From Microbacterium sp. Leaf288 (GTDB lineage Bacteria > Actinomycetota > Actinomycetes > Actinomycetales > Microbacteriaceae): a DNA stretch of 64,000 nucleotides. A program made the position numbers and the translations under genes. Under the pieces are notes generated by a model that saw nothing but the letters and a program-made list of their open reading frames with translations, had not been told where the DNA came from and did not search any database. Position 1 is the stretch's first letter, and each line of letters opens with the position of its first letter. The DNA lies in NCBI RefSeq assembly GCF_001422925.1, contig NZ_LMNI01000010.1, positions 248,001-312,000 on the forward strand. Reading direction: 5' to 3'. Below are positions 39,394 through 49,186 of the stretch, one piece after another.

Positions 39394-39843
39394 ATGCCTG
39401 AACCCCGTGACCGCGTGACCCGCAAGGCCGATCTGCTCACGGCGCTGACGGCTCCGGCGGCCGACGTCTGGGTGGCGACGGCATCCGCGGAGGCGGCGCC
39501 GCATCTCGTGCCGCTGTCGCTCGCGTGGATCGAGGACCGGGCGGTCATCGCGTTGGAGGGCGGATCGGTGACGGCGCGCAACCTCGGTGCGTCCGGGGTC
39601 GCGCGACTCGCGGTCGGTCCGACGCGTGACGTGGCGGTGATCGACGTCGTGCTCGAGCGGTCGGCGGGCGTGGACGACGACGCACCGCTGGGCGAGGCCT
39701 ATGCGGCGCAGGCCGACTGGGACCCGCGCGGGCTCGCCGGCTACGTGTTCCTCGTGCTGCGGCCGACCCGGATCCAGGCGTGGCGCGAATCGAACGAACT
39801 GGCGGGCCGCGTGCTCATGCGGGGCGGCCACTGGGTCGTGTGA
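39394..39843 (+). CDS. Pyridoxamine 5'-phosphate oxidase-like FMN/F420-binding protein
   Basis: A 149-residue split-barrel flavoprotein of the PNPOx-like group. The fold is read from DVWVATASAEAAPHLVPLSLAWIEDRAVIALEGGSVTARNL and a C-terminal WRESNELAGRVLMRGGHWVV. F420-dependent members in actinobacteria reduce quinones or biliverdin; the cofactor here cannot be told. Divergent from the AEC gene. Confidence 0.82.
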   Translation: MPEPRDRVTRKADLLTALTAPAADVWVATASAEAAPHLVPLSLAWIEDRAVIALEGGSVTARNLGASGVARLAVGPTRDVAVIDVVLERSAGVDDDAPLGEAYAAQADWDPRGLAGYVFLVLRPTRIQAWRESNELAGRVLMRGGHWVV

Positions 39844-39880
39844 CCGTCGCCGGCTCGTGTGGTTCCGCGGCGGGGCGGGA

Positions 39881-39898
39881 GTGACGGAAGTCACTTCC
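39881..39898. promoter_or_regulatory. Overlapping palindromes upstream of the Dcu carrier gene
   Basis: GTGAC-GGAA-GTCAC (39881-39894) overlaps GGAAGT-C-ACTTCC (39886-39898). Both are perfect dyads, 73 bases or more before the ATG at 39971, in the position of an operator. Confidence 0.45.
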
Positions 39899-39970
39899 TG
39901 CGACTCCCTCGACGCCGGAGCCGCGCGTCGCTATCGTCGGCGCTGAGGGGAAGTCGATTCGGGGGTTTCG

Positions 39971-41398
39971 ATGGAGACAGTGATCGTCATCCTGCAGGCC
40001 TGCGTGGTGATCGGCGCAATCGTCATGGGCGTGCGCACCGGCGGGATCGGACTCGGGCTCTGGGGTGTCGTCGGCACCGCGATCCTGGTGTTCGTCTTCC
40101 GACTCGAGCCGGGATCGCCTCCCGTGGACGCGTTCTTCATCATCATCGCGGTGATCACGGCGTCCTCGGCGATGCAGGCCGCCGGCGGCATCGACTACCT
40201 CGTGGCGATCGCCTCCAAGATCATCCAGCGCAATCCCGCCCGGCTGACCTTCGTCGCGCCGCTCGTCGCCTTCGTGTTCACCGTGCTGTCGGGCACGTCG
40301 AACATCTTCTTCGCGCTGATCCCGGTGATCTACGAGACCGCCTACCGCAACGGACAGCGTCCCGAGCGCGCGCTTGCGGCGTCGACCGTGACCTCGGGCC
40401 TCGGCATCACCGCGAGCCCCGTGTCGGCGGCGATGGCGGCCTATCTCGTGCTCATGGACGGCACCGGGTACGGCCTTCCGCAGATCCTGGCGGTGACAGT
40501 GCCGGCGGCGATCATCGCGTGCATCGCCACATCGTTCGTGCAGCAGCGCATCGGCAAGAACCTGCTCGACGACCCCGTGTTCCTCAAGCGCGTCGAGGAG
40601 GGGACCGTCGAGGTGCCGGCGCCGCTCAAGGCCGCGTACGCCGCGAAGATCGGCGGTGGTGCGGGTGCCGGAACCTCGAGCCTGGGCGCACCCGCCGGGG
40701 GAGAGGCCGTGAAGGTGCAGCCCGTGGAACACCCCGTGCCTCCGGGCGGCGCGACGGCGGCGTGGATCTTCATCGCCGGCACGCTCCTGGTCGTGACGCT
40801 CGGCCTGTTCCCCTCGCTGCGCCCGGCGTTCCCGAACGACGAGGGCGAGCTCGTGCCGATCGGGATGTCGCCGGTCATCGAGATGGTGATGTTCACCGTC
40901 GCCCTCGTGATCATCCTCGTGCGCAAGGTCAAGCCGTCGCTCGTGGTCGAGCAGCCGCTGCTGCGTGCCGGCTATGTCGCCGCTGTCGCCCTCTTCGGCA
41001 TCGCGTGGATGGCCGACACCTTCATCTCGGCGAACGAGGAGACGATCATCGAGCCGCTCGGCGCGATGATCGAGTCCAACCCGCTGCTGCTGGCCGTCGC
41101 GCTGTTCCTCGTCTGCGGCCTCACCACCAGCCAGTCCGCGACCACGAACACCCTCATCCCCATCGCGCTCGCCGCCGGGCTCGCGCCGGGAGTGATCACG
41201 GCGATGTGGCCGTCGCTCATCGGCGTCTGGCTGTTCCCCGCGAACGGCTCGCAGATCGCGTCGGTCGAGACCGACCAGACCGGCTCGACGAAGCTCACCC
41301 AAGTGCCCGTCTGGCACTCCTTCACGATCCCGATGCTGGTCTCGTGGGTGGCCGTCGTCGCCTCGGGTCTGCTGATCCAGCTCATCATCCCGGCCTGA
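39971..41398 (+). CDS. DcuA/DcuB-family C4-dicarboxylate carrier
   Basis: A 475-residue carrier of the anaerobic C4-dicarboxylate (Dcu) family with about twelve predicted helices, including VFTVLSGTSNIFFALIPVI and LVCGLTTSQSATTNTLIPIAL. It would exchange or take up fumarate, malate, succinate or aspartate. It is followed by an M20 dipeptidase gene after 55 bases, suggesting use of the peptide-derived aspartate (weak inference). Confidence 0.88.
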   Translation: METVIVILQACVVIGAIVMGVRTGGIGLGLWGVVGTAILVFVFRLEPGSPPVDAFFIIIAVITASSAMQAAGGIDYLVAIASKIIQRNPARLTFVAPLVAFVFTVLSGTSNIFFALIPVIYETAYRNGQRPERALAASTVTSGLGITASPVSAAMAAYLVLMDGTGYGLPQILAVTVPAAIIACIATSFVQQRIGKNLLDDPVFLKRVEEGTVEVPAPLKAAYAAKIGGGAGAGTSSLGAPAGGEAVKVQPVEHPVPPGGATAAWIFIAGTLLVVTLGLFPSLRPAFPNDEGELVPIGMSPVIEMVMFTVALVIILVRKVKPSLVVEQPLLRAGYVAAVALFGIAWMADTFISANEETIIEPLGAMIESNPLLLAVALFLVCGLTTSQSATTNTLIPIALAAGLAPGVITAMWPSLIGVWLFPANGSQIASVETDQTGSTKLTQVPVWHSFTIPMLVSWVAVVASGLLIQLIIPA

Positions 41399-41453
41399 AC
41401 CGGCCCGGATCCACGGCGTCTGAGCGCGCGCCCGCGTGCGGAGAGGAGCAAGC

Positions 41454-42797
41454 ATGTCCGACACGAACGAGGTCGCGGAGGGCGCCGCTGCGCTCATGCC
41501 CGAAGTGATCGAGCGCCTCGAGACCCTGGTGCGGATCCCGTCCGTGGCCTTCCCGGGCTTCGATCCCGCACCCGTCCACGAGATGGGTAGGGCCGTGGTG
41601 GAGCTGTTCGAGGCCGCCGGCGCGACCGGGGTGTCGCTCGTCGACGTCCCCGACGGGTATCCGTGTGTGTTCGCAGACCTCGCGGGACCCGAGGGGTCGC
41701 CGACGGTGCTGCTCTACGCCCACTACGACGTGCAGCCGGCGCCCGAGAGCCAGCGCTGGTCCACACCGCCGTTCGAACCGGTCACGAAGGAGGACGGGCG
41801 CATCTACGGCCGCGGCGCCGCCGACGACAAGTCCGGGCTCGTCATCCACTACGCGACCCTCAAGCTGCTCGGCGCCGACCGGCCGTGCCGCGTGAAGATC
41901 CTCGTCGAGGGGGAGGAGGAGACGATCTCGCACCTCGAGGCCTTCGTCGAGGCGAACCCCGAGAAGTTCGCGGCCGACGCGTATGTCATCGCCGACATCG
42001 GCCCTCAGGCGCCGGGCCGGCCGGGTCTCACGACGGCGCTCCGTGGCGATGTCGCCTGCACCGTCACAGTGCGGACGCTCGCGAACCCCGTGCACTCGGG
42101 AGAGTTCGGGGGAGCGGCACCCGACGCCCTCACCGCGATGATCCGCATCCTCGACACGCTGCACGATGACAACGGCGACACGGTGATCCCGGGTGTCGAC
42201 AGCGGCCACTGGGATGGCGCGGAGATGGACGAGGACGTGTACCGGGGCGGCTCGGCGATCCTTCCGGGCGTGGAGTTCCTCGGGACGGGCTCGCTGTCGG
42301 ACCGCATCTGGGCGAAGCCGTCCGTCACCGTCCTCGGCATGGATCTGCCGAACACGACCGAGGCGTCGAACGTGCTGCTGAACGAGGTGAAGGCGAAGCT
42401 GTCGATGCGCATCATCCCGGGCTCCGACGGCGACGCCCAGCTGGAGGCGCTGATGGCGCACCTGCGGTCACAGCGGCCCTGGAACGCCGAAGTGGTCGTC
42501 GAGAAGGTGAAGGTGGGGCATCCGTTCGCCGTCGATGAGTCGCACCCGGCGATCGTCGCCGCGGAGGACGCGCTGCGCGAGGCCTACGGTGCCGACGTGG
42601 AGTCCATCGGCAGCGGCGCATCGATCCCGCTCGTCGCGTCGTTCAAGAAGATCGCTCCCGATGCGGCCATCGTGCTGTGGGGCGCCGAGGACACGGCGCT
42701 CGCTCGCATCCACGCGTCCGATGAATCGGTCGACCCGAAGGAGATCGAGCGGATGATCGTCGCGCAGACGCTGTTCATCCGCGAATTCGCCGGATGA
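41454..42797 (+). CDS. M20-family dipeptidase
   Basis: A 447-residue zinc dipeptidase of the carnosinase-like M20 group. Ligand blocks: LYAHYDVQP, YGRGAADDKSGLV, and VEGEEE; the lid domain follows near 200-310. ATG at 41454 follows GAGAGGAGCAAGC. It ends the core chromosomal segment; the accessory region begins just after. Confidence 0.88.
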   Translation: MSDTNEVAEGAAALMPEVIERLETLVRIPSVAFPGFDPAPVHEMGRAVVELFEAAGATGVSLVDVPDGYPCVFADLAGPEGSPTVLLYAHYDVQPAPESQRWSTPPFEPVTKEDGRIYGRGAADDKSGLVIHYATLKLLGADRPCRVKILVEGEEETISHLEAFVEANPEKFAADAYVIADIGPQAPGRPGLTTALRGDVACTVTVRTLANPVHSGEFGGAAPDALTAMIRILDTLHDDNGDTVIPGVDSGHWDGAEMDEDVYRGGSAILPGVEFLGTGSLSDRIWAKPSVTVLGMDLPNTTEASNVLLNEVKAKLSMRIIPGSDGDAQLEALMAHLRSQRPWNAEVVVEKVKVGHPFAVDESHPAIVAAEDALREAYGADVESIGSGASIPLVASFKKIAPDAAIVLWGAEDTALARIHASDESVDPKEIERMIVAQTLFIREFAG

Positions 42798-42860
42798 CGA
42801 CGGATGCTGCGACCCGCGGTGTGCGACGGAACTACAGCGGTGTAACACGATCAGGGAAAG

Positions 42861-43238
42861 TCATCCGGTTGACACTGTCTCGTGTGCGTGGCGATTCAGC
42901 GCGTGGGCAGGAGCGCGTGGGCGAACTTCGGTGATGGAGCCCCTTCTGGGAACCCCTTCTGGCGCGGGGGTCTGGAAGGGGTTCCGTTCGCGCTCCTTCT
43001 CCGTCGCGCCGATAATGCACATTATGTCAACTCGTAATGACTCTATGGGCGAGATTCGCACATAGAGCGAAATCGGGTAACGCCCACCGGTCCCCTCGAA
43101 TCCATCCCTGGCCTGGCCTTCTTCGAGCCGCTTGTACTGTTGGGTAAACCAAGCGGCATAAGCGCGACCGTTCAGAAGCTTCACCTCTGCATCTAGCCTG
43201 ACCAGGCATTTGTCGCATCGCGGTAGCAAGAACTGCAT
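42861..43238 (-). CDS. Possible small hypothetical protein
   Basis: A 125-codon frame beginning at ATG 43238. The first half (MQFLLPRCDKCLVRL, then AYAAWFTQQYKRLEEGQ) reads like protein with a lone CxxC; the last 35 residues are low-complexity and run through the hairpin at 42949-42985. No clear ribosome site. It contains the 27-bp dyad at 43041-43067. It may be a real island gene, a remnant, or chance. Confidence 0.25.
   Translation of the reverse strand: MQFLLPRCDKCLVRLDAEVKLLNGRAYAAWFTQQYKRLEEGQARDGFEGTGGRYPISLYVRISPIESLRVDIMCIIGATEKERERNPFQTPAPEGVPRRGSITEVRPRAPAHALNRHAHETVSTG
42949..42985. repeat. Hairpin with 10-bp arms downstream of the dipeptidase gene
   Basis: GGAACCCCTT (42949-42958) pairs with AAGGGGTTCC (42976-42985) over a 17-base loop. 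The left arm is part of the tandem CCCCTTCTGG repeat. It could be the terminator of the dipeptidase gene or an end structure of the island. Confidence 0.6.
43012..43067. promoter_or_regulatory. Two dyads ahead of the recombinase operon
   Basis: ATAATG-CA-CATTAT (43012-43025) is perfect and AT-rich. 43041-43067 is a 27-bp nested dyad: CTCTATG at one end and CATAGAG at the other, with inner GCGA...TCGC around GAT. Arms of ten bases about a seven-base centre resemble tyrosine-recombinase core sites; operators for the HTH protein are the other reading. Neither is tested. Confidence 0.5.
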
Positions 43239-43282
43239 GCTGTGTGCGATTCTTGCAACCGGTTCAGGCGCGAGGAGGCAGT

Positions 43283-44392
43283 GTGGACGAGGACTCGAAC
43301 GTGGTGCTCTTCGCTCCGTTCGGCGGCTCCGTTCCAGACCCAGACTTCTTCCTCGAGAGCGTGCTGGACGGCTGGGAGCGTCAGCAGCGTGGCAAGGACT
43401 TCGCGTCGGGAACGATCGGCTCTCGCCGATCACTTGTAGTCCAGCTGGTCGACTTCAGTGGGCACTACCCGTGGCAGTGGACGCTCGCGGACGCCGATGA
43501 CTTCTTCTCCCATGCCCGCGGCATCCGCAATCTTGCCCACGCGACCGTGCGTTCCTATCAGACGGCGATCAAATTGTTCTGCGACTTCGCGTGCGATCCC
43601 CGCTACGACTGGAATGAGCAGTGCGCGCGCCTGTTCGGCGCCGGGTTCGCGCAGGTGATCACCGAGCTCAACCGGATCAGCCACGCTCAACCGACCGATG
43701 CGCGGCCGGCGAAGCGGCCGTTCACCCAGCGTGAGCTGCAGCAGCTGTTCGACCTGGCCGATCTCGAGGTGCAGCGCGTCATCAACTCCGGCCGACGCGC
43801 CCCGATCGCGGCCTGGCGCGACGCCGTCGCACTGAAGGCCGCATACAGCTGGGGCCTGCGCTCCAACGAGCTTCGCCACCTCCAGCTCGTCGACCTGTCC
43901 CGCAACCACAGGGCCCCCTACTTCGGCGACTATGGCGTAGTCCGGGTGCGGTGGGGCAAACCCCACCGAGGCTCGGCGAAGAAGGTGCGCTCGGTGCTCA
44001 CCGTCTGGGAGTGGAGCGTCGACGTCGTACGCGACTGGGTGACTAACGGTCTCCCCCACTACGGCGAACCCCTCACCGACCTGTTCCCCACCAGCAAGGG
44101 CAACGTGGTGGGCGAATCGCACCTGCTCGGCCGGCTGCGCGCCTTCATCGACGAGCTCGGTTTCCCGCCGGGGCTCGACATCCACTCCTTCCGGCGCTCG
44201 TACGCTACCCATCTCATCATCGGCGAAGGCTTCGACGTCGCGTTCGTGCAGATGCAGCTCGGACACGAGCACGCGTCCACGACATCCATCTACGCCCTCC
44301 CCTCCCCCGACTACCAGACCCGAGCTTTGCAGCAGATCCATGAACGGACCCTGGCGGCCGCGAAGCAACTCCCACGAAGGAGAGAACCATGA
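43283..44392 (+). CDS. Tyrosine recombinase/integrase, catalytically intact
   Basis: A 369-residue tyrosine recombinase that cuts and rejoins DNA through a 3'-phosphotyrosine. The SAM-like core-binding domain lies at about 20-135. The catalytic set is complete: Arg193 in GLRSNEL, His301 and Arg304 in DIHSFRRSYATH, His328 in LGHEHAS and nucleophile Tyr337 in SIYALP. GTG at 43283 is chosen since GAGGAGG ends four bases before; GTG 43244 is longer. It overlaps the HTH gene by ATGA. First gene of a three-gene unit. Confidence 0.88.
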   Translation: MDEDSNVVLFAPFGGSVPDPDFFLESVLDGWERQQRGKDFASGTIGSRRSLVVQLVDFSGHYPWQWTLADADDFFSHARGIRNLAHATVRSYQTAIKLFCDFACDPRYDWNEQCARLFGAGFAQVITELNRISHAQPTDARPAKRPFTQRELQQLFDLADLEVQRVINSGRRAPIAAWRDAVALKAAYSWGLRSNELRHLQLVDLSRNHRAPYFGDYGVVRVRWGKPHRGSAKKVRSVLTVWEWSVDVVRDWVTNGLPHYGEPLTDLFPTSKGNVVGESHLLGRLRAFIDELGFPPGLDIHSFRRSYATHLIIGEGFDVAFVQMQLGHEHASTTSIYALPSPDYQTRALQQIHERTLAAAKQLPRRREP

Positions 44393-44733
44393 CACGACGC
44401 GAGATCCACTACACCTGGCGCGTGAGGGAAATCATGGCGCGCCGCAACATCTACCTCGCCAAAGACCTTGCGCCGCTCCTCCATGAACGCGGCATCACGC
44501 TGACCGCCAACGCGATCTGGCGCATCGTCAAGGACGAGCCCGAGCGCATCTCGATCCAGATGCTTGTCGCTCTCGCCGACGCCCTTGACGTCTCCCTCGA
44601 CGAGCTCATCACCTACACCGCCCGCGATGCGCGCACCATCCGGGCCAAGCGCGCCGCCGGCGACCGGCTCCCCGACATCCGCGACTACCGCCCCACCCGG
44701 GCGCGCATCCTCGACGACGATGACGACGAGTAG
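44389..44733 (+). CDS. Cro/C1-type HTH protein
   Basis: A 114-residue DNA-binding protein with one Xre-like helix-turn-helix (residues 8-70: VREIMARRNIYLAKDLAPLL, then ISIQMLVALADALDVSLDELI). A charged tail follows, ending in a run of Asp. ATG 44389 overlaps the recombinase stop; its end overlaps the next gene by 14 bases. It may regulate the unit or direct the recombinase, as TnpC does in Tn554 (analogy only). Confidence 0.85.
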   Translation: MTRREIHYTWRVREIMARRNIYLAKDLAPLLHERGITLTANAIWRIVKDEPERISIQMLVALADALDVSLDELITYTARDARTIRAKRAAGDRLPDIRDYRPTRARILDDDDDE

Positions 44734-46279
44734 ACCGGGTCGGCCCAGCAGCGGCGGTAACGGCTCCGCCCGACCTCCCACCCTTCGCACCTTCACCGAT
44801 CCGATCCCTCGCGGGAGACCTCGCTCCACTGGCGATCTCCGCTGCGACCGCTGCCAGAACAAAGTCGCACGCATCCGGGTGCGATGGCCCGACGGCGCCA
44901 TCTGCGGCCCCTGCTTCACCACCGCCACCCACACCTACGGCACCTGCGCACACTGCCACACCCACCGGATGACGCCCGGCCGCTCCGCCACCGGTCAACC
45001 GATCTGCCGCGACTGCGCCGGCATCCGAACCAACCTCACCTGCAACCGCTGCGCACAGGAAGCCGAACGCCACCGCGGCGGACTCTGCGCGCGCTGCGCC
45101 CTCAACGACGACCTCAACGCCCTGCTCAAACCTGGAAACGACCGCCAGATCCTGCAACTCGTCGACGCCCTCGCCGCCGCCGACCGGCCGGAAAGCATCA
45201 TCAGCTACCTCCGAGGCGCTCGAGCGCACGAGCTACTCACGCGCATCGGCACCCGCGAACTGCCGCTCACCCACGAAGCACTCGACTCACTCCATCGATC
45301 CGCGGCCGCGGAACACATTCGCGCCCTGCTCACGCACCACGGCGCGCTCCCACGGAGAGGCAGTGAACCGGTGGCCCGTTTCAGACTCTGGCTCACGGCA
45401 CGTCTGGCGCAGCTTCCCGACGACGGCACCCGCAGCAACATCGAACAATTCGCTACATGGCGACACCTCCGCCGCATCCGCGAGAAGGAGAAGCACGCCG
45501 ATGCGGTCAACCTCGACACGGTCACCCACGCCGCCAAGCAGGAGATCACCGAAGCCAGCAAGTTCCTGGTCTGGCTCCGCACCGCCCACAACGTCGGCCC
45601 CGCCGGCATCCAGCAAGCCCACGTCGACGAATACCTCAGCGAAGGCGCGACGACCCGGACACACATCCGGAACTACATGCACTGGCTGCAGCGCGGAAAG
45701 AGCCGCCGCCAGCGAACCATGGACGCCCCACACCGCGTCGCAAAATCGCTGCCGATGGTCACCCAGGAGCAACGACTGGAGATGGTGCGCAACTGCATCG
45801 AGCTGGGACAAGTCGTTGCATCCACCCGGATCGCGGGCCTGATCTTCCTGCTCTGGGCGCAACCCCTCAACCGGATCGTGATGCTGCGGCAACGAGACGC
45901 CCTGCGGCGCGTCGACGGCCTCTACCTCCAGCTCGGAAGTACGCCCACCGTCGTGCCGAGCGAGCTCGCCGAAACCTTCGTAACCTACTTCGCGGCACCC
46001 GACAACCAACGCACCGGCAACACCGGCACGGACTGGCTCTTCCCCGGCCGACGAGCCGGAGGCCACCTTCACGAACGGACGCTGAGCCAGCAGCTCAAAG
46101 TCCTCGGAATCGACCCTCAACGCGCCCGCAACGCCACACTGCAGGACCTCACCCGGCAAGTCGACGCCCGCAGCCTCATCGACCTCCTCGGCTACAGCGG
46201 CCACACCATCACGCTCCACGCCGCGCGCGCCGCAGCACCAAAGGCTGATTACATAACTCTCCGACGAGAGCGTGATTGA
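44720..46279 (+). CDS. Zinc-ribbon protein with degenerate tyrosine-recombinase fold
   Basis: A 519-residue protein. The N-terminus carries three CxxC...CxxC zinc ribbons: Cys42/45 with 62/65, 76/79 with 96/99, and 108/111 with 123/126. A helical, SAM-like region (about 270-350) and a recombinase-like C-terminus follow. There the first Arg box reads AQPLNRIVMLRQRD (Arg lost), the HxxR box LQDLTRQ (His lost), LGH is LGYSG and the Tyr place is His (TITLHA). It should bind DNA but not cut it. ATG 44720 lies inside the HTH gene. Confidence 0.75.
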   Translation: MTTSRPGRPSSGGNGSARPPTLRTFTDPIPRGRPRSTGDLRCDRCQNKVARIRVRWPDGAICGPCFTTATHTYGTCAHCHTHRMTPGRSATGQPICRDCAGIRTNLTCNRCAQEAERHRGGLCARCALNDDLNALLKPGNDRQILQLVDALAAADRPESIISYLRGARAHELLTRIGTRELPLTHEALDSLHRSAAAEHIRALLTHHGALPRRGSEPVARFRLWLTARLAQLPDDGTRSNIEQFATWRHLRRIREKEKHADAVNLDTVTHAAKQEITEASKFLVWLRTAHNVGPAGIQQAHVDEYLSEGATTRTHIRNYMHWLQRGKSRRQRTMDAPHRVAKSLPMVTQEQRLEMVRNCIELGQVVASTRIAGLIFLLWAQPLNRIVMLRQRDALRRVDGLYLQLGSTPTVVPSELAETFVTYFAAPDNQRTGNTGTDWLFPGRRAGGHLHERTLSQQLKVLGIDPQRARNATLQDLTRQVDARSLIDLLGYSGHTITLHAARAAAPKADYITLRRERD

Positions 46280-46316
46280 TCCCGGCAGGACTGGGGAGGC
46301 GCTTCCACTTGTGTAG

Positions 46317-46631
46317 TCACCCGTTCAGATCCACCTCGTCTCCGAAAGGCTCCGAACCGGAACCAATCGGATCGAGCACCACCTCGAAGTCGGGTCCGAG
46401 TTCCGCCTGGAGAATCGCGCGCAGCTCATGAGCCTCTGAAAGATGGCCGAGTCGTACTTTGCGCGACCTCCATCCATGGACTTCGTCGACGTTCTCGCTG
46501 AACTCGCGTGACCATGCCGCGAGGCGTTCGACAAGATGCTCGTTCAGCACCTCCGCGCCGAACCCGTAGTCGTTGCCGCAGCGGATAGGCCACCCAACCC
46601 ACGGCAACCCAAGTTCTACTCGTACCACCAT
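46317..46631 (-). CDS. Putative immunity protein of the adjacent toxin
   Basis: A 104-residue cytoplasmic protein rich in Trp and acidic residues (VELGLPWVGWPI, then LVERLAAWSREF and LRAILQAELGPDFEVVLD). It has the look of small acidic actinobacterial proteins found next to secreted toxins. ATG at 46631 overlaps the toxin end by 16 bases, so both are translationally coupled. No family could be named with certainty; the immunity role is inferred from position and size. Confidence 0.55.
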   Translation of the reverse strand: MVVRVELGLPWVGWPIRCGNDYGFGAEVLNEHLVERLAAWSREFSENVDEVHGWRSRKVRLGHLSEAHELRAILQAELGPDFEVVLDPIGSGSEPFGDEVDLNG

Positions 46632-47281
46632 TGTGCAAACCGGCGGCAATCCGTGGTGTCAGGGGCGTAGCTCGTGATCACACGATTGTTGGTCATCGAG
46701 ACGACGACAGAAGGGTTGAAGGTATAGAGGAGGGTTCCGCTCGTCGTCCAGATCTGGATCATCGACGTGTAGCAGCGCTTACCGCCGTACTCTTTCGTGT
46801 AGTTGTCCGGCCAATCGAGCACCTGGCGAGTGATTCCCTCCATGAAGTCGTCCCAGGCGACCGAACTCGGTATCGCGTTCACCCGAGCCTGCCACTGGTT
46901 CTGGTGGCGGTCCTGGATGTGATGCCAGCCATACGTCTTGGTGCTGATCGGACCGCACTGGAGGTAGACGGTCCCAGTGGCCTGGGGTACCCAGCCGTAG
47001 GACCGGAGCGGAAAATCGGGAAACTGAGGAGTCCCCACCCCGAAGCACGCGGCGTATGCCGTGGGGGTGTCGATAAGCATCGGCGTGATCGTACCGGGGG
47101 ATTGAGTCTGCTCGCTCGGGATTAGATCGGTCAGATCGGATAAGTAGGTCCGTTCACCCGACTCGGGATGGTAAATGTACACCTCCGGCTCCGGCGGCGC
47201 CTCGGCCGCTCCCATCAGCAGTGGAGTCAGTAGGGTGACGCAGGCGCCCATAATGAGTGTTCTCAGAGCCACGTTGCTCAT
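46616..47281 (-). CDS. Secreted protein, putative BECR-fold RNase toxin
   Basis: A 221-residue protein with a Sec signal (hydrophobic 9-25, cleavage likely after AEA at 28). The mature N-terminus is Pro/Thr-rich. The C-terminal 105 residues show the layout of barnase/EndoU/colicin/RelE (BECR) nucleases: GWHHIQDRHQNQW (His120-His121, Arg125-His126, Trp130), a helix with WDDFMEGITRQVLDWP, and a last strand VITSYAP (201-207). Local GC is lower than around. The overlapping downstream gene would give immunity. Fold assigned by eye only. Confidence 0.55.
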   Translation of the reverse strand: MSNVALRTLIMGACVTLLTPLLMGAAEAPPEPEVYIYHPESGERTYLSDLTDLIPSEQTQSPGTITPMLIDTPTAYAACFGVGTPQFPDFPLRSYGWVPQATGTVYLQCGPISTKTYGWHHIQDRHQNQWQARVNAIPSSVAWDDFMEGITRQVLDWPDNYTKEYGGKRCYTSMIQIWTTSGTLLYTFNPSVVVSMTNNRVITSYAPDTTDCRRFAQWWYE

Positions 47282-47821
47282 CTGCTATTCCTTCTCTTTA
47301 GCCGGACCCAGGCTGGGTCTTTGAGGATTGGGCCGAGCGTATCGACTTGTCTCGGAATACGCTGTCCCCCATTGGGTGGACAAGGTGGCATGGTGAGGAA
47401 ACGGGTAACGCGGTTTCCCAGCATGCGTGAAGCTGTGAGGTGGAGGAATCTCACGACGCTCCCCTGAAATCGACGCCGACCTGCGGTTTGTGGGGTCAGC
47501 GTCGTCGGCGTTGAGCTTGCTCTGTCGTCTGCGAGCGTTGGAGGCAGACGACGCGGCGACTGTCACGGGCTCCGTCGACCGCACGTTGGAAGCTCCCGAC
47601 GTCGCGCAGAGTCTCCCGGCGGTCAGTTCGACGGGATCGACAAGTGGTTCGGCCTGGAAGGCGTATGAGCTTCTCCCCCGCCGAGAGGTTTTCGAGCGGC
47701 GGATCCACCGTAGCGGCGCGGTCGGCGTAAGGATCGCTGGAGGCGCGATCAGACGTCTTATCTTCGATCAACCTTCACGTCAGATCTATGCAGGATCGAA
47801 GATAAGTACTAAACTCGACTC
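47282..47821. other. 540-base gap without a supported gene
   Basis: Between the toxin gene start and the DUF222/HNH gene. It holds a short hairpin GACCCA-GGC-TGGGTC (47305-47319) in the toxin 5' region and a 13-bp inverted repeat next to the HNH gene (separate entry). Frames found here have no protein character. Confidence 0.6.
47757..47806. repeat. 13-bp inverted repeat upstream of the DUF222/HNH gene
   Basis: CTTATCTTCGATC (47757-47769) and GATCGAAGATAAG (47794-47806) are perfect complements over a 24-base spacer, ending 15 bases before the ATG at 47822. It overlaps any promoter of this gene. Operator or mobile-element end are both possible. Confidence 0.7.
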
Positions 47822-49186
47822 ATGGAAGCCCTCTCGCCGACCGTTGAACATGTGGGCCATGCGTTCGTGCTCAGGGAGTTGTTCGGGGACGCGGAGTCAG
47901 CGCAGTTCGAGATGAACCGGCGTGCGTCGCGGCAGAGCGAGCATCTCGCCGAGGTGCTCGACTTCGCGCGCGCACATCCTGAGCTGTACGTGAACGTGGA
48001 CTTCGATCCACGCCTCGCCGGAAGGTTTCCATCGCTCGGCGGCGATGCCACGCTGGCGGAGCGGTGCGCAGCTCTCGAGGCGTCTTCGCGGCTGCGGCTC
48101 ACGGAGGGCGAAGTGCGGTCGTCGGCGGCCGTGGCGCAACGGGCGCTCGCGCAACTCCCCCGCGTTTGGCAGGCCGCGCGCGATGGGCTGATATCGATCG
48201 CGCACGTGAAGGCCGTACTCGCCCAGTTGCCGCTCATCGAGAGTGTCCCCGATGCGAGCGGCGGGTTCGATGAGCTGATGCGCGATATTGCCGTGTCGTC
48301 CACTGTCAGCGGCACCCGCCGGCAAGCTCGCCTGGTCGCCGACCGGCTGACGGCGTGCACCCGCACGCAGCGGCACGTAGCCGCCTTCGCTCGACGCACG
48401 GTGTACGTCGAGGACGTCGCCGACGGCATGTCGTGGGTATACGCGATGGTCACAACAGATCGTGCACACGCTTTCGACCGCGAACTCTCGCTGACGGCGA
48501 AGCAGATGCCTGCGGTCCAGCGCGACGGTCGCACGACAGGGCAGATCCGTGCGGATCTGTTCGCTGACATGTTGATCGGCGGCGACGTCACTCGAGTGAA
48601 GTCGAAGGTGCTCGTGACCGTTCCTCTCGACCGGCTCGTTCCCGCGGCGAGGGCGAGCGTGCGCCTCCCGGCGATCTCCACCGAGGTGGCGGGTCTGGAT
48701 CTGAACAGTGACTGCCTGATCCCCGGAATCGGAGCGATCGACGATGCCACCGCCCGGCAGATGCTGCTCGACGCCGGCGCATTCACAAGGGTGATCACCG
48801 ACCCGGTCACCGGCGTCATCCTCGACATGGACCGGCGAGCCCGCAAGGCCACCCGTGCGCAACGAGAGTGGCTGGCTCTGGTGCATGGCACGTGCGCACG
48901 CGACGGCTGCGACCGCCTCGCGATCGACGGAGACATCGATCACCACTGCGCTTATCACGGTCCTGATCGCGGCGAAACCGACATCGCGAACCTCGATCCG
49001 CTGTGCGACCCCGACCACGCGCTGAAAGACACCACGCTGCTGCGACATCAGAGGCGGGAGGACGGCAGCATCGAGGTCGAGTTCCCCAGCGGGCATCACA
49101 CCACCAACCCGTTCGCCGGCCTGCGAGAACGCGTCCGCGCGTTGCTCGACCGGATCGCAGAACCGCCGGAGAACCCGCCCTTCTGA
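47822..49186 (+). CDS. DUF222 / HNH endonuclease (13E12-repeat type)
   Basis: A 454-residue protein with an N-terminal DUF222 domain (residues 10-300) and a C-terminal HNH nuclease near 350-410: CARDGC, DGDIDHHCAYH with the metal-binding His, NLDPLC and a final DH. All HNH residues are present. The family is abundant and multicopy in actinobacteria (REP13E12-like in mycobacteria) and thought mobile. ATG 47822. Part of, or bordering, the accessory island. Confidence 0.85.
   Translation: MEALSPTVEHVGHAFVLRELFGDAESAQFEMNRRASRQSEHLAEVLDFARAHPELYVNVDFDPRLAGRFPSLGGDATLAERCAALEASSRLRLTEGEVRSSAAVAQRALAQLPRVWQAARDGLISIAHVKAVLAQLPLIESVPDASGGFDELMRDIAVSSTVSGTRRQARLVADRLTACTRTQRHVAAFARRTVYVEDVADGMSWVYAMVTTDRAHAFDRELSLTAKQMPAVQRDGRTTGQIRADLFADMLIGGDVTRVKSKVLVTVPLDRLVPAARASVRLPAISTEVAGLDLNSDCLIPGIGAIDDATARQMLLDAGAFTRVITDPVTGVILDMDRRARKATRAQREWLALVHGTCARDGCDRLAIDGDIDHHCAYHGPDRGETDIANLDPLCDPDHALKDTTLLRHQRREDGSIEVEFPSGHHTTNPFAGLRERVRALLDRIAEPPENPPF

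Follow-up and report, generated by a model that had tools for sequence, protein, structure and literature searches.

A putative recombination module of small actinobacterial elements found beside dif and plasmid Xer sites

The window analysed here is a stretch of 64,000 nucleotides from Microbacterium sp. Leaf288 (contig NZ_LMNI01000010.1, positions 248,001 to 312,000), and it holds three overlapping genes, here called A, B and C, that encode a catalytically complete tyrosine recombinase, a small helix-turn-helix (HTH) protein and a zinc-ribbon protein with a degenerate recombinase-like domain. We think it likely that this trio is the recombination module of a small element that inserts beside chromosomal dif sites and plasmid Xer sites, with C as its non-catalytic subunit. 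The original prediction had described the trio correctly and had taken C for a DNA-targeting or complex-assembly subunit, a role that still seems plausible; it drew the limits of the unit too narrowly, since the unit extends to about position 47423, and it missed the dif/Xer insertion target. The larger finding appears to be a family of elements that insert beside Xer sites in several clades. Genomes and loci are designated below by our own G and L numbers.

The element and its empty site

The limits of the element emerge from comparison with G062, a genome in which the element is absent and the same dif is intact and empty; window positions 43035 to about 47424 are the insertion. Comparing insertion sites between relatives with and without the unit had been proposed as a check, and dif proved to be intact in both. 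The wider surroundings of the window and G062 are 93% identical, with 81% identity at the left junction (including dif) and 76% at the right. The right end was set at about 47423 by common sequence: the window reads AAACGGGTAACGCGGTTTCCCAGCA, Kocuria reads AAACGGATAACGCACTTTCCCATCA, and the Agromyces and G487 copies diverge right after ..CACCATCA. The right-end sequence of the window element is also present in the Arthrobacter p2MP copy. The principal features are as follows.

43005..43032, plus strand: intact Xer site of the host chromosome (dif), with TGCACA as its 6-bp centre and the XerD arm facing the element
43033..43034, plus strand: two bases common with the empty site; junction ..TTATGTCAACTCG; the empty G062 (L082) reads TTATGTCAACTCG, then differs
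43035..47423, plus strand: putative mobile element of some 4389 bp, with TAATGACTC at its left end and CCCAGCA at its right end, the latter placed within about 2 bp
43283..44392, plus strand: gene A, GTG start, 369 amino acids, catalytically complete tyrosine recombinase
44389..44733, plus strand: gene B, Cro/C1-type HTH protein, 114 amino acids
44720..46279, plus strand: gene C, ATG start, 519 amino acids; three zinc ribbons followed by helical core-binding-like and degenerate recombinase-like domains

The dif site, CGCGCCGATAATGCACATTATGTCAACT, lies directly to the left of the element. We presume, by analogy with E. coli dif, which arm at 43005..43032 is to be called XerC and which XerD. With up to two mismatches allowed, 85 of 118 genomes, the window's own among them, have the dif pattern, 84 of these a single time and G111 twice; the other 33 gave no match, and a reversed control pattern gave none across all 118. 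It has a single match in the host's own genome, and the window holds one match even when up to three mismatches are allowed. GC skew within the window is too noisy for placing the terminus. The site has 26 of 28 bases in common with the dif suggested for Frankia alni (PMC3025954; this and the later papers are cited for what the available part of their text describes).

Xer sites beside related trios

The trios most like that of the window sit beside Xer sites with considerable regularity. Both strands of the 600 bp upstream of A were scanned, with the arms scored and the 6-bp centre ignored, and trios were counted as nearest when C matched at E <= 1e-60, the copy was distinct and the flank was available. 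A site was found 253-310 bp upstream of A in 26 of these 30 nearest trios. The first survey contributed 19 of 21, the misses being L092, which has the XerD arm only, and L107; left out were L094 and L104 (no flank), L126 and L096 (duplicates), L034 (a circle), the second tandem copy in L040 and the minus-strand trio of L037, which belongs to a second type. A further 18 loci were fetched before looking and gave a site in 7 of 9 usable near copies (misses G534 and G236), leaving out G188 (no flank), G510, G627 and G497 (no A detected) and the minus-strand trio of G633 (second type). The A frame is interrupted in L092, L105 and L107, and without these three the counts stand at 18 of 18 and 7 of 9.

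Chromosomal copies in the window's genus have TGCACA or nearly so as the centre of the site, except for L106 (ATATCT). The centres of plasmid Xer sites vary (CAGAGC, TTGTGA, CCGCGA, TTTATA and others), as would be expected if the replicon supplies the site. Elsewhere in the fetched stretch of L035 (P. ureafaciens pA) there is one more Xer-like site, a weaker one scoring 20.7.

The second type of trio lies on the XerC side and faces away, with a reverse site at 207-220 bp in all four copies; these come from two Kocuria and two Rhodococcus plasmids that are pairwise near-duplicates, and A is interrupted in one of them (L126). Two divergent trios, one per arm, flank a single Xer site in L036 and L037 (Kocuria rosea plasmids), L126 (Rhodococcus qingshengii) and L161 (G633). 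On a tree of A with 48 rows the target label needs 5 changes, compared with a mean of 19.8 for shuffled labels, and none of 200 shuffles was as low. The XerD-side copies fall into two groups, and the XerC-side and siteless copies mostly into one group each. With so few label changes, the choice of target seems to be passed on together with the recombinase module.

Two other loci, L164 (G510) and L168 (G497), have a C relative with no A or B detected and a dif-like site 2.2-3.5 kb upstream of C. They are possibly decayed elements.

The recombinase, its HTH neighbour and the trio as a unit

The three genes are co-directional, A and B overlapping by 4 bp and B and C by 14 bp, just as the original prediction had it. 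The product of A matches Phage_integrase (E 9e-15), and its active site, R193/K226/H301/R304/H328/Y337, is invariant in 23 of 23 aligned homologues, an alignment that leaves out homologues whose A is interrupted. The full Arg/His/Arg/His/Tyr set first read from the window thus holds throughout, with K226 besides, and A has both the R-K-H-R-H-Y active site and the domain that mark a tyrosine recombinase. It scores to the XerC and XerD models at E ~8e-19, far under their curated cut-offs. Two other Xer-like recombinases are encoded by the host (L002 1036-2016 and L003 1516-2421; XerC/XerD are our own labels), and these are 22-27% identical to A; A differs from XerC and XerD in being encoded within what seems to be a mobile element.

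The small protein between A and C is indeed an HTH protein of the Cro/C1 type, matching HTH_26 at E 3.5e-10. In PADLOC it gave weak matches to capH (E 0.003) and Cmr5 (E 0.006), as is usual for HTH proteins, and A, C and both cargo reading frames gave none.

A search of genome neighbourhoods for the three-gene order, another check proposed with the prediction, revealed a recurring unit. A, B and C are all present at 22 of the 30 C loci in the survey of related genomes, L010 being counted among the C loci with an A match that belongs to a second trio. At the remaining eight there is C alone or B with C; these are short fragments, loci ended by the fetched flank or contig end, or loci with no A detected.

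Signs of movement

Several records suggest that the element moves. In Paenarthrobacter YJN-5 an identical 4720-bp element is carried by two plasmids, and in A. agilis an identical 3260-bp element is carried by two plasmids, each time adjoining Xer sites with different centres. P. ureafaciens AT has a tandem pair on plasmid pA together with a 4712-bp circular record of that unit, pD. The latter (L034, NZ_CP094493.1) was deposited as a 4712-bp 'plasmid' that consists of the element only. Between Agromyces mediolanus (L095) and G487, which bears the label of the window's genus, 5044 bp at dif are 99.2% identical, and we take this to reflect recent transfer. The flanks of these two copies have no mutual match at E <= 1e-3. 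The idea that the flanks are unrelated was ruled out, because the Agromyces left flank matches dif loci of the window's genus at 14 of 20 loci (the window at 67%) and so represents the same neighbourhood, diverged.

No empty plasmid site turned up in searches with the flanks of a single copy from YJN-5 and a single copy from A. agilis. Rhodococcus pBD2 was considered as an empty site for L126 and rejected; the right flank is common to both, but no Xer site is present there and the comparison is not clean.

The family is unevenly spread. Those close relatives that bear names belong to genera of the Microbacteriaceae. Relatives of C (E <= 0.001) were found in 27 of 148 related genomes and in 16 of 296 genomes drawn across the phylum, the window's own genome being included in both counts. 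At E <= 1e-5, C matches 229 of 72,556 plasmid records; their tally names ten genera, every one actinobacterial, and leaves 17 further genera without a name. None of 50,697 phage records gave a match at that threshold. Two loci in Pseudolysinimonas were counted once, since a single 11-kb stretch occurs there twice (99.8%).

Such observations bear on the possibility that the trio is a domesticated accessory module for dimer resolution at dif and plasmid sites and not part of a mobile element. The tight link to Xer sites on both chromosomes and plasmids would suit an accessory of this kind, but its patchy presence among related genomes, the tandem copies, the circular record, the identical copies on two plasmids, the 99.2% identity across genomes with diverged flanks and the varying cargo all speak for mobility, and we consider domestication highly improbable.

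The junctions address a different possibility, namely that host XerC and XerD integrate the element at dif and that the trio is merely accessory. This is the manner of the IMEX (CTXphi, VGJphi, TLCphi, GGI; LME-1), which likewise integrate at dif and use the host Xer recombinases by means of a dif mimic (PMC5357621, PMC9765430). The element does lie at dif, in a host with two further Xer-like recombinases. IMEX phages, however, carry a dif-like phage attachment site (attP; PMC5357621), whereas the window has a single dif, the GATAA-N6-TTAT Xer core is absent from the tandem and circle junctions, and the crossover falls outside the XerD arm. The trio moreover brings its own recombinase, with an active site complete in all the aligned homologues, and its element sits beside dif. 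Integration by the host enzymes is accordingly, in our judgement, very unlikely, and insertion by the element's own module remains the preferred reading.

C as a non-catalytic partner

The three zinc ribbons attributed to C have stood up well. Its six CxxC pairs (C42/45, 62/65, 76/79, 96/99, 108/111 and 123/126) would suffice for three ribbons, and all are invariant across the six closest proteins; across a 19-member alignment the last four pairs never vary and C62/C65 hardly does. The prediction had also reported that the first Arg, the HxxR His, the LGH His and the Tyr were all replaced. Read by eye, the alignment has the LGH His replaced in 19 of 19 relatives, no Tyr at the catalytic position in any of the 19 (H, W, I or R stand there), and the first Arg replaced in 18 of 19, with L012 seeming to keep it. 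Near HxxR a basic residue is mostly retained. Degeneracy across 19 aligned relatives marks the catalytic losses as a trait of the C family and not a misalignment of one protein, and C is very likely catalytically dead.

A recombinase fold in C is modestly supported, by relatives that pass a Pfam cut-off and by low-confidence fold matches to Xer proteins. The Phage_integrase cut-off is passed by 2 of the 19 relatives. Foldseek, given the full low-confidence model, returned tyrosine recombinases at ranks 1 to 11 (E 0.03-0.85); the C-terminal part matched XerH-difH (E 0.001) and XerA (E 0.02), with the next match at E 3. TM-scores were low, about 0.2, for the full model and the C-terminal part alike. 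A C profile run against the PDB gave chance-level matches only, the best being ribosomal zinc proteins at E 0.02, with Cre at E 0.2. Viral contigs gave no sequences with which to deepen the C alignment. In public records, both those of the plasmids matched by C and L036, L037 and L126, the labels given to C homologues include 'recombinase XerD', 'site-specific recombinase', 'Fis family transcriptional regulator', 'tyrosine-type recombinase/integrase' or 'hypothetical protein'.

How closely C is involved in recombination is debatable. A might act alone as an ordinary homotetrameric integrase, with C a regulator or targeting adaptor outside the synapse. A is complete, the kinship of C to recombinases is weak in direct tests, and the exact roles of its counterparts Tfp and GinC (see below) are likewise left open in the available text of PMC10214605 and PMC5385486. 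Yet relatives of C keep core-binding and catalytic-like domains, the top Foldseek matches of its poor models are tyrosine recombinases, and the C gene overlaps the B gene, which in turn overlaps that of A. We regard A acting alone as a possibility worth keeping in mind, though a minority one, and prefer to see C as a subunit of the recombination complex.

Points against the proposal

A number of observations weigh against the reading favoured here. The full Xer site is absent from 4 of the 30 nearest copies (L092, L107, G534 and G236), the E <= 1e-60 cut was set after the first survey, and the 30 trios are not 30 independent events, several copies being near-duplicates. Within the XerC-side clade, G430 has its reverse site at 473 bp and the second trio of G633 has no site within 600 bp; G236, which is related to that clade, has no site either. 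Judging from coordinates, the second trio of G633 lies on the other side of its dif, some 0.6-0.7 kb away. Among the more diverged trios L108-L121 an Xer site lies upstream in 0 of 14, and G148, G219 and G310 also have none upstream of A. The absence of sites from diverged trios implies that Xer targeting belongs to clades and not to the whole family. The L108-L121 trios come from the same genus and order.

Movement, moreover, is deduced by comparing sequences and not from experimental observation, and relative to the tandem junction that of pD is missing 2 bp, a shortfall that makes pD either a true circle or an assembly product. As to C, the window protein has no significant Pfam or NCBIfam match, and an invariant Tyr511 stands 19 residues after its LGY. 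The C-family profile matches host XerD weakly (E 0.0094, probability 4%) and A hardly at all (E 0.21, with no match by hidden Markov model), and the A profile has no match in C. Both structure models are poor, with a mean pLDDT of 58; structure prediction had been named as the way to confirm or refute the fold, and these models match tyrosine recombinases first.

Relationship to known systems

Going by published descriptions, two families of elements come close to the trio. The SEs (strand-biased circularizing integrative elements; intA-tfp-intB-srap) have a multi-protein tyrosine-recombinase operon in which Tfp, a recombinase-like partner without RHRY, accompanies active recombinases and a small protein (PMC10214605); like the elements described here they form circles, have few chosen target sites and have a spacer of about 6 bp at their ends. 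The GInts (ginABCD) have an operon of recombinase-type genes and a small protein, and their GinC is recombinase-like, without the first Arg, beside active recombinases; all four gin genes were required in the authors' tests (PMC5385486). C appears to resemble Tfp and GinC in role and, with due reserve about its kinship, has the SE trait of a non-catalytic recombinase-like partner; the gene sets, hosts and targets of these families are nevertheless different. The statement in the original prediction that the arrangement has no named description may hold for the exact arrangement, and was overstated in that Tfp and GinC were already known as such partners.

Could the element, then, be an actinobacterial branch of the SEs or GInts? 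An operon in which a recombinase is joined by a small protein and by a recombinase-like protein with an incomplete catalytic set would fit, as would site specificity and circles. SEs have two RHRY recombinases, IntA and IntB, and GInts three recombinase-type genes and a small protein, whereas the trio has two recombinase-type genes and one HTH gene, with A alone complete and C without the catalytic set in the 19 aligned proteins; zinc ribbons and the HTH protein set it further apart. SEs were found by their authors in Gammaproteobacteria only and the trio occurs in actinobacteria; no dif-like motif was detected in the SE-6945 attachment site (attB) as far as the available text of PMC9345347 goes, and the trio's target is dif/Xer. 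SEs carry 6 bp of left flank to their right end, and no sign of such carry-over was seen in the tandem junction and tandem right end of P. ureafaciens or in the YJN-5 and A. agilis pairs. In GInts the direct repeats are imperfect and 10-17 nt long, the targets include an ABC-transporter gene and ssb, and the cargo spans 2.5 to 70 kb (PMC5385486). We consider membership of either family unlikely.

Other systems are more distant. Tn554 (tnpA, tnpB, tnpC) is also site-specific, with a small accessory protein beside its recombinases and a 6-bp footprint; its TnpA and TnpB both have RHRY and there is no Tfp counterpart, whereas only A is catalytic in the trio. RIT elements likewise group three recombinase-related genes, but the archetype has the catalytic tyrosine in all three (both PMC10214605), and the trio lacks three catalytic recombinases. 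XerH leads the Foldseek matches of C. The available text of a survey of tyrosine recombinases (PMC8138268) does not mention the trio, and the open-access literature, with subscription papers and preprints outside its scope, yielded no description of the trio or of actinobacterial elements beside dif.

Ends, cargo and neighbouring sequence

The remaining features of the element are its ends and its cargo.

43043..43065, plus strand: subterminal dyad CTATGGGCGAGATTCGCACATAG, a possible binding site judging by its sequence
43074..43083, plus strand: subterminal repeat CGGGTAACGC, left copy
46317..46649, minus strand: cargo open reading frame (ORF), 110 amino acids, TTG start; no Pfam or PADLOC match
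46616..47281, minus strand: cargo ORF, 221 amino acids; no Pfam, NCBIfam or PADLOC match
47399..47423, plus strand: right end AAACGGGTAACGCGGTTTCCCAGCA, holding the right copy of CGGGTAACGC at 47402-47411

By eye, dyads like CTATGGGCGAGATTCGCACATAG occur at the same place in some other copies, and the 221-amino-acid ORF has a hydrophobic N-terminus and is possibly exported. Cargo varies among copies: the Agromyces copy has a major facilitator superfamily (MFS) transporter and an ArsR-type regulator, and the A. agilis element holds little besides the trio.

To the left of dif, window positions 39971-42797 hold transporter and M20 peptidase genes that are missing from G062, where the alignment jumps from 39843 to 42818; this is a second indel, on the opposite side of dif. 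Immediately right of the element, 47822-49186 encode a DUF222-domain protein, a stretch that G062 (L082) and L086 (G028) also have, aligned to the right of dif. In L088 (G052) and L074 (G049) about 100 bp like the element's left end lie just right of dif, and the sequence fetched there showed no trio. Of 20 dif loci put through a shuffle test, G052 (z 26) and, unexpectedly, G049 (z 15) were the only ones supported as holding such remnants, and they are possible scars of lost elements. G065, G013 and G001, tried as further left-end remnants, do not stand out in this test, a weak one in which a true diverged copy (G051) reached z 2.

A model for insertion

We infer that A acts in recombination, that C recognises the target and that B has a supporting part. 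In paired copies the crossover is placed close beyond the XerD arm, preceded by TTATGTC or TTATGTA and then roughly 6 bp of target. The far-side target bases have no common motif by eye, the XerD-arm side alone looking conserved, and the tandem junction retains right-end bases of the element and not left-flank bases. This one-sided behaviour fits a complex of two different subunits, A catalytic and C binding only. Integration would be by the element's own recombinase, by a presumed strand exchange for which A would supply the chemistry, and the Xer site, whether chromosomal dif or a dif-like plasmid site, would be left complete after insertion alongside. C would most likely bind one side of the recombination site or an Xer arm and hold the complex together, B would regulate or assist, and the sister clade would insert in like manner at the XerC arm.

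A more specific and decidedly tentative version would have A cut and rejoin one strand on one arm while the dead, zinc-ribbon, Xer-like C sits on the opposite arm and recognises the Xer site; every event would be a single-strand exchange finished by replication. Here dif and Xer sites would serve as safe harbours, of which different clades own the XerD and XerC sides.

Implications for actinobacterial replicons

A dimer-resolution site is required on most circular replicons, and the position beside it would therefore be a landing pad that is safe, conserved and common to chromosome and plasmids; landing there could explain the spread of the element across actinobacterial replicons. Public annotation calls for some caution, as certain plasmid 'recombinase XerD' genes are C and not XerD. 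The elements may in turn offer a way to find plasmid Xer sites in actinobacteria, and the trio would be a natural system for asking what a non-catalytic recombinase partner does.

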